Origin: Celeribacter neptunius
GTDB taxonomy: Bacteria > Pseudomonadota > Alphaproteobacteria > Rhodobacterales > Rhodobacteraceae
Reading direction: 5' to 3'
Length of the DNA stretch: 64,000 nt
Assembly (NCBI RefSeq): GCF_900113955.1
Contig: NZ_FORH01000004.1
Location: 248,001-312,000 of the forward strand
Positions within the stretch are counted from its first letter, which is position 1; every line of letters starts with the position of its first letter. The position numbers and the translations under genes were made by a program. The notes under the pieces were generated by a model. The model was not told the origin of the DNA, ran no database searches, and worked only from the letters and a program-made list of their open reading frames with translations. Shown one piece after another: positions 51,801-57,363 of this stretch.

Positions 51801-51829
51801 TTGCAGTTCCGCTGTTTGGCGCGTATAGG
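51801..51829 (+). promoter_or_regulatory. Sigma70-type promoter of the rimP-nusA-infB operon
   Basis: TTGCAG (51801-51806), 17-base spacer, TATAGG (51824-51829). It predicts a leader of about 115 bases before rimP, which holds the structures described in the next entries. Confidence 0.6.
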
Positions 51830-51850
51830 ACATGCCAACAGCGGCGCTGT

Positions 51851-51921
51851 CGGGAGTTCCCGAAGCTCCACCGGGAAAGATCGACGGGCCGCGTGCCCGT
51901 TTTTTTGTGCCCCTGTGGGGC
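51851..51921 (+). promoter_or_regulatory. Structured leader of rimP-nusA-infB (putative attenuator)
   Basis: Four short complementary elements lie in order. CGGGA (51851-51855) can pair with TCCCG (51858-51862), and TTCCCG (51857-51862) with CGGGAA (51872-51877); the two pairs exclude each other. A terminator hairpin at 51884-51906 follows, then a second hairpin GCCCC/GGGGC (51909-51913 and 51917-51921). It looks like an attenuator controlled by NusA or ribosome traffic. Function is inference from sequence alone. Confidence 0.5.
51884..51906 (+). terminator. Intrinsic terminator in the rimP leader
   Basis: ACGGGC (51884-51889), loop CGCGT, GCCCGT (51895-51900), then seven T at 51900-51906. 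It lies 43 bases before the rimP ATG, inside the predicted transcript, so it is most likely a premature terminator rather than the end of pip. Confidence 0.7.
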
Positions 51922-51949
51922 AATGTAATGTCTGAAAGGCAACCCGGAA

Positions 51950-52537
51950 ATGTCCGAACTTATTGCCAAGACCGCGATTGATCGCCGGATGGCGGAGATC
52001 GTCGGCCCCGTCATCGAAGGGATGGGGTTCGAGCTTGTGCGTGTGCGTCTGATGTCCTCGACGAAATCGAAGACCCTGCAAATCATGGCCGAACGTCCGG
52101 AGGGCGGTATCGAAGTGGATGAATGCGCGGAGATTTCCACCGCCGTTTCTGCTATTCTCGATGTCGAAGATCCGATCGAAGATGAATATACGCTCGAAGT
52201 GTCGAGCCCGGGGATCGACCGGCCTCTGACCCGTTTGAAGGATTTCGAGACCTTCGACGGCTATGAGGTCAAGATCGAGACCACCGAAATGATCGACGGT
52301 CGCCGCCGTTTCAAAGGCGTGTTGGCCGGTGTCGAGGGTGACGATGTGCTTCTGACCATTGAGAACAATGGCGAAGATGTCACCATCGGGCTGAATTTTG
52401 ACTGGCTGTCGGATGCCAAGCTCGTGCTGACCGATGAGCTGATCCGTGAAATGCTGCGCCAACGGAAATCCGATGGCGCAATCGACGAAACCCAATTTGA
52501 CGAAATCCAGACCGACGACGGGTCTTCAGAGGATTGA
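51950..52537 (+). CDS. rimP: Ribosome maturation factor RimP
   Basis: Needed for assembly of the 30S subunit. 195 aa. The N-terminal domain (residues 15-85) has [10 protein letters not shown] and [27 protein letters not shown], the best-conserved motif, is near residue 84; the C-terminal Sm-like domain follows. The tail (about residues 170-195) is acidic. First gene of rimP-nusA-ylxR-infB, with 14 bases to nusA. Confidence 0.95.
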
Positions 52538-52551
52538 GAGAGGACTGAGTA

Positions 52552-54171
52552 ATGGCAATCACCTCTGCAAACCAGCTTGAGCTGTTGCAAACCGCCGAGG
52601 CCGTGGCCCGCGAAAAAATGATCGATCCCGAACTGGTGGTCGAAGCGATGGAAGAGAGCCTCGCGCGCGCTGCAAAGTCGCGCTACGGCTCCGAAATGGA
52701 CATTCGCGTTTCCATCGACCGCAAGACCGGTCGGGCGACGTTTACCCGTGTGCGCACCGTCGTCGAAGACGAAGAGCTCGAGAATTACCAGGCCGAGCTG
52801 ACCGTGGAGCAGGCCAAGCAATATATGGCCGACCCGCAAGTGGGGGACGAGATCAAGGACGAAGTGCCGCCGGTCGAGCTGGGCCGGATTGCCGCGCAAT
52901 CCGCGAAACAGGTGATCCTGCAGAAAGTGCGTGAAGCCGAGCGGGATCGTCAGTTCGACGAATTCAAGGACCGCGTTGGCACCATCATCAACGGTGTGGT
53001 GAAACGTGAGGAATACGGCAATGTGATCGTCGATATCGGTCGTGGCGAAGGCATCCTGCGCCGCAACGAGAAAATCGGCCGCGAAGCCTATCGTCCGAAC
53101 GACCGCATCCGCTGCTTCATCAAGGATGTGCGCCGCGAAGTGCGCGGTCCGCAGGTCTTCCTGTCGCGCACCGCGCCGGAATTCATGGCCGAGCTGTTCA
53201 AGATGGAAGTGCCGGAGATCTACGACGGTATCATCGAGATCAAGGCCGTGGCCCGCGATCCGGGCTCTCGCGCGAAAATCGCCGTGATTTCCTATGACGG
53301 CTCGATCGATCCGGTCGGCGCCTGTGTCGGTATGCGCGGCTCGCGCGTGCAGGCCGTGGTGAACGAGCTTCAGGGTGAGAAAATCGACATCATTCCCTGG
53401 AATGACGATCAGCCGACCTTCCTCGTGAACGCGCTGCAGCCGGCCGAAGTGAGCAAAGTGGTGCTCGATGAGGATGCTGGCAAGATCGAGGTTGTGGTGC
53501 CCGACGAACAGCTGTCGCTGGCCATCGGCCGTCGCGGTCAGAACGTGCGTCTGGCGTCGCAGCTCACCGGTCTCGACATCGATATTCTGACCGAGGCCGA
53601 GGAATCCGAGCGCCGTCAGGCCGAGTTTGCGGCCCGCACCAAGCTGTTCATGGAAGCGCTCGATCTCGATGAATTCTTTGCCCAGCTGCTGGTTTCCGAA
53701 GGCTTCACCAATCTCGAAGAGGTCGCCTATGTCGATGTCGACGAGCTTCTGGTGATCGACGGTGTCGATGAAGACACCGCCAACGAGCTTCAGGCCCGGG
53801 CCCGCGACGTACTGGAAGAGGCACAGCGCAAGGCGCTCGAACATGCCCGTGAACTGGGCGTTGAGCAAAGCCTCATTGACTTTGAGGGTCTGACGCCCCA
53901 AATGATTGAAGCGCTGGCCGAAGACGGTGTGAAATCGCTCGAAGATTTCGCGACCTGCGCAGACTGGGAGCTTGCCGGGGGCTGGACCACGGTGAATGGC
54001 GAACGGGTCAAGGACGATGGCGTGCTTGAGAAATTCGACCTCTCCCTTGAAGAAGCACAGAACCTGGTGATGACCGCACGGATTCAGCTGGGCTGGGTCG
54101 ACCCCGCCGATCTTGAAACCGAAGAAGACGTTGCCGAAGGCGATGTGGCGGAAGAGGAAAGCGAGGCCTGA
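52552..54171 (+). CDS. nusA: Transcription termination/antitermination factor NusA
   Basis: Binds RNA polymerase and nascent RNA and modulates pausing, termination and antitermination. 539 aa. N-terminal RNAP-binding domain (about 1-125), S1 domain with [16 protein letters not shown] near residue 150, two KH domains with [16 protein letters not shown] and [15 protein letters not shown], and acidic repeats in the C-terminal part. ATG preceded by GAGAGGACTG. The protein may regulate its own operon through the leader terminator (inference). Confidence 0.97.
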
Positions 54172-54202: not shown

Positions 54203-54835
54203 ATGACCCGAGGCGGCATGACGAAGACCAGAGATGAAGCGGAACGGCGCTGTATCGTGACCCGCGAGGCCGAGCCTCGCCGGGGCCTCATCCGTTTTGT
54301 CATTGCCCCCGATGGGCTTGTCGTGCCGGATCTGGCCGAAAAGCTGCCGGGTCGCGGGATCTGGGTCGCGGCCGATCGCGCGGCTCTGGACGAGGCGGTG
54401 AAGAAAAAGCTCTTTGCCAAGGCGGCGCGCGCTCAGGTGACAGTGCCCGATGGGTTCGTCGATATGATCGAGGCGGGGCTCGCGGATCGGGTGGTGCATC
54501 TCGTGTCCCTGGCACGAAAGGCCGGAGACGCGGTCTGCGGATTTGAAAAAGTGAAGAGCTGGTTGTCTGAGGGGCGGGCGAGAGTCCTGCTTCAGGCCTC
54601 CGATGGCTCGGAACGCGGCAAAGGCAAGCTCTGGACACCCGAGGGGGGCCGTTGGTTCGGCCATCTGACGAGTTCCGAATTGGGTTTGGCTTTTGGCCGC
54701 GAAAGTGTGATACATGGCGCGCTCGCAGGTGGCGGACTCAGCAAACGTGTTGTAGAGGAAGCCAACCGCCTTATGGGCGTGCGCGAGACAATCGGTGGAG
54801 AGGGCTCCGCCGGGAAGGGTAAGACGACGAAATGA
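54203..54835 (+). CDS. YlxR (DUF448)-L7Ae-like RNA-binding protein
   Basis: 210 aa. The N-terminal YlxR domain, about residues 8-75, contains [19 protein letters not shown] and [19 protein letters not shown], shown in part; YlxR binds RNA, and in some bacteria RnpA or the RNase P RNA. A second region (about residues 85-180) with [21 protein letters not shown] resembles L7Ae/YlxQ-like ribosomal-protein folds that are separate genes in Firmicutes. The alphaproteobacterial fusion is common in nusA operons. A second start at 54218 is possible. The stop overlaps infB by four bases. Confidence 0.87.
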
Positions 54836-57363
54836 GCGAGAATGACGGCAAAAAAACCCTCGGGGTTCGGGGTGGTCCTGGGTCTGTGAAGCAGAGCTTC
54901 TCCCACGGGCGCACGAAGAACGTCGTGGTGGAAACCAAACGCAAACGTGTCGTGGTACCGAAGCCCGGAGCCGCGAAATCGGGTGCGTCTGGGGCCGGAA
55001 AATCCCATCTTGGGGATCCCTCCAAGCGTCCGGCCGGGATTTCCGATGCGGAAATGGAACGTCGGATGAAAGCGCTCGCTGCTGCGAAAGCGGCGGAAGC
55101 CGAAGAGGCGAAACAGCGCGCGGCCGATGAAAAGGCCCGCGAGGAAGAGCGCGAGCGTCGCCGCCGCGAGGCCGAAGAAAAGGCCCGTGAAGAGGCGGAG
55201 CGCGAAGCCGCGCTGAAAGCCAAGGAAGAAGAGGAAGCCCGTCAGAAGCGTGAGGCCGAAGAGGCCAAGCAACGCGCGGCGGAAGCCAAGAAGAAACCGG
55301 CCGCTGCCGCGAAACCGAAGCAGGACGATGATCCTGCCGCGGCGCAGGCGGCGCTGCAGAAACAGCAGGAACGTGGCGGCCGTGCGGCTCAGCCGACGCC
55401 CCCGCGTGGTCGCGAGCGTGAAGCCGATGATCGCAACAACCGCGGCAAGGGGGGCGACAACCGTCGCTCCGGCAAGCTGACCGTGAACCAGGCGCTGTCT
55501 GGCGGTGAAGGCGGGCGTCAGCGCTCCATGGCCGCGATGAAGCGCAAACAGGAACGCATGCGTCAAAAGGCGATGGGTGGCAATGAATCGCGTGAAAAGG
55601 TTGTGCGCGACGTTCAGGTGCCGGAAACCATCGTTGTTTCCGAACTCGCCAACCGTATGGCGGAACGGGTTGCCGACGTGGTCAAGTCGCTCATGAAAAT
55701 GGGCATGATGGTCACCCAGAACCAGTCGATCGACGCCGATACGGCCGAGCTGATCGTCGAGGAATTTGGTCACCGCATCGTGCGTGTGTCCGATGCCGAC
55801 GTTGAGGACGTGATCCAACAGGTCGAAGACGCACCGGAAACGCTGCAGTCGCGTCCGCCGGTGATCACCATCATGGGCCATGTGGACCATGGTAAAACCT
55901 CGCTGCTCGATGCGATCCGCCATGCCAATGTGACCTCCGGCGAGGCCGGCGGCATTACCCAGCATATCGGTGCCTATCAGGTGAAAACCGAATCCGGGGC
56001 CGTGTTGAGCTTCCTTGATACGCCGGGCCACGCCGCCTTTACCTCGATGCGGGCACGTGGTGCTCAGGTGACGGATATCGTGGTTCTGGTGGTGGCGGCC
56101 GATGACTCGGTCATGCCGCAGACGATCGAGGCGATCAGCCACGCGAAAGCCGCAGGTGTGCCGATGATCGTGGCGATCAACAAATGTGACAAGCCGGAGG
56201 CCGATGCGATGAAGGTGCGCACCGAGCTCTTGCAACATGAGGTGATCGTCGAAGAGATGTCCGGTGATGTGCAGGACGTCGAAGTCTCCGCCAAGACCGG
56301 CAAGGGGCTCGACGAGCTGTTGGAAGCCATCGCACTTCAGGCCGAAATCCTCGAGCTCAAGGCCAATCCGGATCGCGCCGCCGAAGGTGCCGTGATCGAA
56401 GCCCAGCTCGACGTGGGCCGCGGCCCGGTTGCCACCGTTCTGGTGCAAAAAGGGACGCTCAAGCGCGGCGATATCTTCGTCGTCGGTGAGCAATGGGGCA
56501 AGGTCCGTGCGCTGGTCAATGACAAGGGCGATCGCGTCGATGAGGCCGGTCCGTCGGTTCCGGTCGAGGTCCTGGGTCTCAACGGTACGCCGGAAGCCGG
56601 TGACGTGCTGAACGTGGTCGACACCGAGGCGCAAGCCCGTGAGATCGCCGAGTATCGCGAACAGGCCGCCAAGGACAAACGCGCCGCAGCCGGTGCCGCA
56701 ACCACGCTCGATCAGCTTCTGGCGAAAGCCAAGGCGGATGAGAATGTCTCCGAGCTTCCGATCCTGGTGAAAGCCGATGTGCAGGGTTCTGCCGAGGCGA
56801 TCGTCCAGGCGATGGAAAAAATCGGCAACGACGAGGTGCGCGTGCGCGTGCTGCACTACGGTGTGGGTGCGATCACCGAGAGCGATATCGGTCTGGCGGA
56901 GGCCTCCGGCGCGCCGGTGATCGGCTTCAACGTCCGTGCCAACGCGCCGGCCCGGAACTCTGCCAACCAGAAAGGCGTCGAAATTCGCTACTATTCCGTG
57001 ATCTACGACCTCGTGGATGACGTGAAAGCGGCGGCTTCCGGCCTCCTGTCTGCGGAAATTCGCGAGAACTTCATCGGTTATGCCGAGATCAAGGAAGTCT
57101 TCAAGGTCTCCGGCGTCGGCAAGGTGGCGGGCTGTCTCGTCACCGAAGGTGTGGCGCGGCGTTCCGCCGGTGTGCGCCTGCTGCGCGACGATGTGGTGAT
57201 CCACGAGGGCACGCTGAAGACGCTCAAGCGCTTCAAGGACGAGGTCAAGGAAGTGCTGTCCGGCCAGGAATGCGGTATGGCATTCGAGAATTACGACGAT
57301 ATCCGCCCGGGCGATGTCATTGAGATTTTCGAACGCGAAGAGGTCGAGCGCAAGCTCGACTGA
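54832..57363 (+). CDS. infB: Translation initiation factor IF-2
   Basis: GTPase that brings initiator tRNA to the 30S subunit. 843 aa. The N-terminal 230 residues are a charged, alanine/glutamate/arginine/lysine-rich coiled-coil-like region, followed by the IF2N-type helix. The G domain begins with [12 protein letters not shown] near residue 348, with DTPGHAAF and NKCDKPEAD after it. Domains II-IV follow, ending with the tRNA-binding C-terminal domain. Overlaps the preceding gene by four bases, so the operon is fully coupled from ylxR on. Confidence 0.97.

Follow-up and report, generated by a model that had tools for sequence, protein, structure and literature searches.

A putative Rhodobacteraceae form of the rimP-leader attenuator ahead of rimP-nusA-ylxR-infB

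The leader and its operon

The genes rimP (51950–52537), nusA (52552–54171), ylxR (54203–54835) and infB (54832–57363) are located in this order on the forward strand of the 64-kb stretch of Celeribacter neptunius DNA analysed here (the window). According to the Pfam matches, the products carry RimP_N and RimP C-terminal SH3, NusA_N and KH_5, YlxR, and IF-2 and IF2_N domains, respectively. The initial annotation placed a promoter, a leader, an intrinsic terminator and a second hairpin ahead of rimP, and a check of the sequence found all four elements where they had been placed. The promoter-like site (51801–51829) consists of TTGCAG (51801–51806) and TATAGG (51824–51829) separated by 17 nt. 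Transcription is predicted to start at 51836–51838, 7–9 nt past the −10 element. The 5' end of the predicted RNA, a product of about 70 nt with its 3' end in the T run, would lie near the AAC of AACAGCGG.

All of the leader elements are on the forward strand. The 5' element AGCGGC (51840–51845), which is complementary to the terminator apex, is defined by conservation, pairing counts and duplex energies. It is followed by the hairpin P1, GCTGTCGGGAGTTCCCGAAGC (51846–51866), which is defined by covariation and which in the window includes the pairing of CGGGA (51851–51855) with TCCCG (51858–51862). The linker TCCACCGGGAA (51867–51877) is recognized by its conservation, and its CCACCG portion (51868–51873) is near-invariant in 102 leaders. 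The intrinsic terminator ACGGGC-CGCGT-GCCCGT with its T run (51884–51906, with seven T at 51900–51906) is indicated by a terminator scan, conservation and covariation. Its apex GCCGC (51888–51892) is able to pair with the 5' element, as judged from the sequence and the pairing counts. The second hairpin, GCCCC-TGT-GGGGC (51909–51921), is matched by similar hairpins at several loci of Celeribacter and Pacificibacter, whereas a comparison by eye finds none in most other genera.

In a simple scan of 9 kb, terminator-like sites were not in excess (9 were found and 8.6 were expected from shuffles), and the promoter rule of the same scan does not list the leader promoter. Thus, chance is excluded solely through conservation. 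As for attenuation by a leader peptide, no ATG is present within 51836–51906 or in the consensus leader, and the single GTG of the window leader is inside the terminator (51893–51895).

A rimP-leader is recognized by an intrinsic terminator that lies in the 5' region of the rimP-nusA-infB operon; the window has one, and so do 110 of 110 related loci. The gene nusA lies downstream of rimP in 78 of the 80 named loci, and the remaining two records stop just after rimP. The upstream ORFs vary: among the 80 named loci, 62 can be placed in 8 groups by a shared upstream ORF, and the remaining 18 share none (the grouping is based on ORFs without gene names). As the upstream ORFs change while the leader persists, the leader is not the terminator of an upstream gene.

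Conservation and covariation among relatives

The window belongs to a family that we take to be Rhodobacteraceae in the GTDB usage; NCBI names divide it into Roseobacteraceae and Paracoccaceae. The same layout is found ahead of rimP in all 110 related loci (95, and 15 on the other strand; 102 distinct leaders). It consists of TATA, AACAGCGGC or a near variant, P1, CUCCACCGG, the linker, ACGGGC..GCCCGU and the T run. Of the 110 loci, 80 are named and form a non-random set, the best 80 of 295 relatives, and the other 30 come from 198 genomes drawn from the family, 191 of which have a rimP match. Some genomes are present twice, and the set includes the window (L001). Among the named loci, those of Celeribacter have the nearest rimP. 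One leader-bearing locus (L085) is titled Maritalea mobilis, Devosiaceae by name; its RimP groups with Rhodobacteraceae, and the name looks wrong.

An order-wide draw yielded 196 genomes, all from the window's family, and a covariance model of the leader matches every one of them (196 of 196); rimP is downstream in 30 of 30 matches inspected, the weakest ones included. In a class-wide draw, the model matches 17 of 385 genomes. Five of these are in the window's family (its own genome included) and score 70–87 bits, and 12 are from other families and score 24–32 bits; among the latter, rimP is downstream only in L117. The L117 locus bears a partial form (AUAGCGG, GGGCCUCUGGCCC) before rimP, around 1501–1566, which is perhaps an intermediate. 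Further copies of the leader were also considered and rejected: the second matches in six inspected genomes score 25–30 bits and are located away from rimP. Five additional second matches score 25–30 bits.

A TTG is located 17 nt from the TATA in 80 of 80 named loci, a count whose −10 half is partly by construction because the −10 element was placed by its TATA; several divergent leaders have no TATA. Every position of the 5' element AGCGGC is at least 90% conserved in the 102 leaders.

Covariation was analysed on an alignment of 100 leaders (the window, 70 of the 80 named loci and 29 of the 30 divergent loci) fitted to the P1 and terminator stems. On this alignment, changes on both sides were detected in 8 of 8 pairs of P1, and double changes in 3 of 5 pairs of the terminator. 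The column pairs of P1 also top the covariation list on an unfitted MAFFT alignment. For the possible pairing between the linker CC and the 5' GG, no covariation signal was detected. The initial annotation had proposed a switch in which TTCCCG (51857–51862) pairs with CGGGAA (51872–51877) to the exclusion of the CGGGA/TCCCG pairing, and had named covariation in aligned leaders as a check. Covariation is present in P1 and the terminator, whereas TTCCCG/CGGGAA is paired in 53.8% of 502 cells, compared with 53.5% in the shuffles, 213 of 500 of which reach the observed value. As its pairing equals that of the shuffles, this antiterminator is ruled out as a conserved feature. The minimum-energy fold of the terminated window RNA does contain TTCCCG/CGGGAA as a nested pairing.

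The 5' AGCGGC is complementary to the terminator GCCGC(U). On the 100-leader alignment, which is not fitted to this helix, 97.3% of 488 cells are paired; the shuffled value is 96.0%, and 0 of 500 shuffles reach the observed one. Slid controls are paired at 38–85%. Double changes occur in 4 cells (0 of 500 shuffles) and in 2 of 5 pairs (6 of 500 shuffles). The covariation score of the helix is unexceptional, with 30 of 500 shuffles reaching it, and so is the number of pair types (127 of 500). The mean energy of the cognate duplexes is −9.83, compared with −8.77 (s.d. 0.16) for re-paired ones, with 0 of 5000 reaching the cognate value; this was calculated with 50 distinct 5'/apex combinations and with kinship ignored.

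Compensatory changes in the pairing are observed in three lineages, with some exceptions. According to the RimP tree, AACGG/CCGUU in two Rhodovulum represents one clade, nested among relatives with a G–U intermediate, and AGAGG/CCUCU arose separately in L108 and L097, which are kept apart by well-supported branches. The complement is retained in a shifted register in L204 (−7.2), and the helix is broken in L049 and L197. The leaders with AGCUG (L110, L199–L202 and L207) keep a partial helix of −3.7 to −8.0 kcal/mol, and L202 is the weakest (−3.7). The pattern is absent from 22 leaders of other families (cognate −3.0, re-paired −3.32); with no signal there, a class-wide 5'-end/apex pairing was rejected. 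Of the 10 leaders of the genus g24 (L189, L205, L206, L208, L210 and L212–L216, upstream of rimP), 8 carry by eye CGCTG, which is complementary to the 5' CAGCG, in the terminator loop, and this loop is often enlarged. With this arrangement, less of the stem might have to open for the pairing to form.

The terminator and the 5'-end/apex helix would compete. In the common apex sequence, the helix has five pairs, two of which involve the top of the terminator stem and three its loop. Both structures could be forced in 92 of 100 leaders, and the mean advantage of the terminator in the forced folds is 3.9 kcal/mol; it has the more stable fold in 74 of the 92 leaders, and the helix has it in 18. The window is among these 18 (helix −31.3, terminator −25.8). 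Without forcing, 65 of 100 leaders have the terminator in their minimum-energy fold, 15 have the helix and 20 have neither. As the energies mostly favour the terminator, termination is likely the default in most species.

Relation to known leaders

Naville and Gautheret (2010) named the rimP-leader, a GGGc...gCCC terminator before rimP-nusA-infB; rimP is first in their list of attenuated genes, and NusA is the regulator they favoured (PMC2965389). The window sequence ACGGGC...GCCCGT with its seven T conforms to the GGGc...gCCC pattern with a U run, and the distance of 43 nt from terminator to gene is inside the 4–130 reported there. As described in PMC2965389, the general rimP-leader has no larger conserved element and no antiterminator, and a Gammaproteobacterial subset has an antiterminator. 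The leader analysed here differs from the general form in its conserved 5' domain and the covarying 5'-end/apex pairing, and because of these features it is filed as a variant form; the absence of a larger element is a remark of the 2010 authors on their own set rather than a condition of membership.

The leader had also been described as outside the recognised standard riboswitch classes. This holds for riboswitches and for Rfam, no family of which, riboswitch and ribosomal-protein leaders included, matches the window at the gathering score; it does not hold for the literature, where the rimP-leader has been named since 2010. The Rfam family RF01770 (rimP) has the same genomic position as the leader here. 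Its 11 matches in the window's genome (E up to 10) are all below the 47-bit cut-off and none is at the leader; in the control, 1 of 14 genomes passes this cut-off, and E. coli is among those that give a signal. The best sub-cut-off Rfam match of the leader is the small RNA isrK (51838–51905, 32.3 bits, cut-off 50). In a relative the score drops to 13.8 bits, which makes the resemblance look fortuitous, and isrK was rejected.

NusA of B. subtilis is autoregulated through NusA-stimulated termination in its leader, according to a review (PMC12288461). As in that system, the operon here encodes NusA and the leader has a terminator; B. subtilis belongs to another phylum, and the likeness is to the description in the review. 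In PMC6511841, terminators before rimP and control by NusA are reported for the E. coli metY-rimP-nusA-infB operon, whose transcripts rise when NusA termination is reduced. Terminators ahead of rimP are common to both loci. The E. coli operon includes a tRNA gene, metY, and is served by several promoters (PMC6511841), whereas no tRNA gene was found in the 64-kb window. Among loci of other families of the Alphaproteobacteria, 53 of 69 have a GGG...CCC terminator and T run before rimP (24 of 29 and 29 of 40). These are the best-scoring loci of 124 rimP-bearing genomes, one of them (L247) in a stretch shortened by a contig end, and the count rests on a single pattern prone to chance matches and misses.

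In the literature searched, no description of the family-specific 5' domain and its pairing with the terminator was found. By term search, rimP, nusA and infB are absent from the main text of PMC8632094, a motif paper covering Rhodobacterales, rimP and nusA from the main texts of PMC9549626 and PMC12218461, and ylxS and rimP from PMC8060035.

Alternative explanations and proposed mechanism

The initial proposal of an attenuator ahead of rimP-nusA-ylxR-infB is supported by conservation, covariation and precedent. By comparison of sequences, the attenuator is real, conserved and published in kind, and the new part is the family-specific 5' domain. We consider that the leader is probably the Rhodobacteraceae form of the rimP-leader attenuator, in which the pairing of the 5' end would be antiterminating and NusA would be the most likely input. 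A feedback by NusA in this lineage is plausible by precedent. The leader could instead terminate a constant fraction of transcripts without feedback, the 5' pairing being a tuning element or a by-product of conserved sequence. The terminators found before rimP in other families without a 5' domain, and the greater stability of the terminator fold in 74 of 92 leaders, agree with such fixed attenuation. However, the near-invariant 5' element and linker and the compensatory changes exceed the needs of a fixed terminator, and NusA control has been published in two other bacteria (PMC12288461, PMC6511841), so that we regard it as unlikely.

The choice between the terminator and the 5' pairing might also be made by a protein such as RimP, IF2 or a ribosomal protein bound to P1 and the CCACCG linker. 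P1 covaries as a structural stem, and the linker is near-invariant while its possible pairing with the 5' GG lacks covariation, both in favour of such a reading; the Rfam matches, however, include no ribosomal-protein leader family, and we think it quite improbable. It is very improbable that the element is a stable small RNA of about 70 nt that acts in trans and whose 5' end is shielded by pairing to the terminator. Such an RNA would account for the conserved promoter and terminator of its own and for the isrK match, but that likeness fades in a relative, the element accompanies rimP at all 110 loci, and in the six inspected genomes the second matches are weak and away from rimP.

For a putative NusA-responsive rimP-leader attenuator, the following steps are proposed. 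Transcription would start near 51836, and the first 70 nt or so would either end at the terminator (51884–51906) or continue into rimP-nusA-ylxR-infB. The terminator would be the default fold in most relatives. When AGCGGC pairs instead with the top of the terminator 5' arm and the loop (GCCGC), the hairpin would be hindered and read-through favoured. Plentiful NusA would then increase termination and lower the output of the operon. Because the loop supplies three of the five pairs of the helix, the 5' end might form a partial pseudoknot with the terminator; our inference is that the pairing acts as an antiterminator and does not coexist with the terminator as a pseudoknot. In Rhodobacteraceae, the 5' end of the transcript might itself be the antiterminator that captures the apex as long as the 5' domain is not bound by NusA or another operon product, which would make a compact self-measuring switch of about 70 nt conserved across the family; we offer this only tentatively.

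The Rhodobacteraceae leader matters because rimP stands at the top of the 2010 list of attenuated genes and no antiterminator was seen there in the general form of its leader (PMC2965389). With a competing pairing that covariation reveals, this family would provide a concrete, mutable design for testing self-control by NusA or its operon partners.
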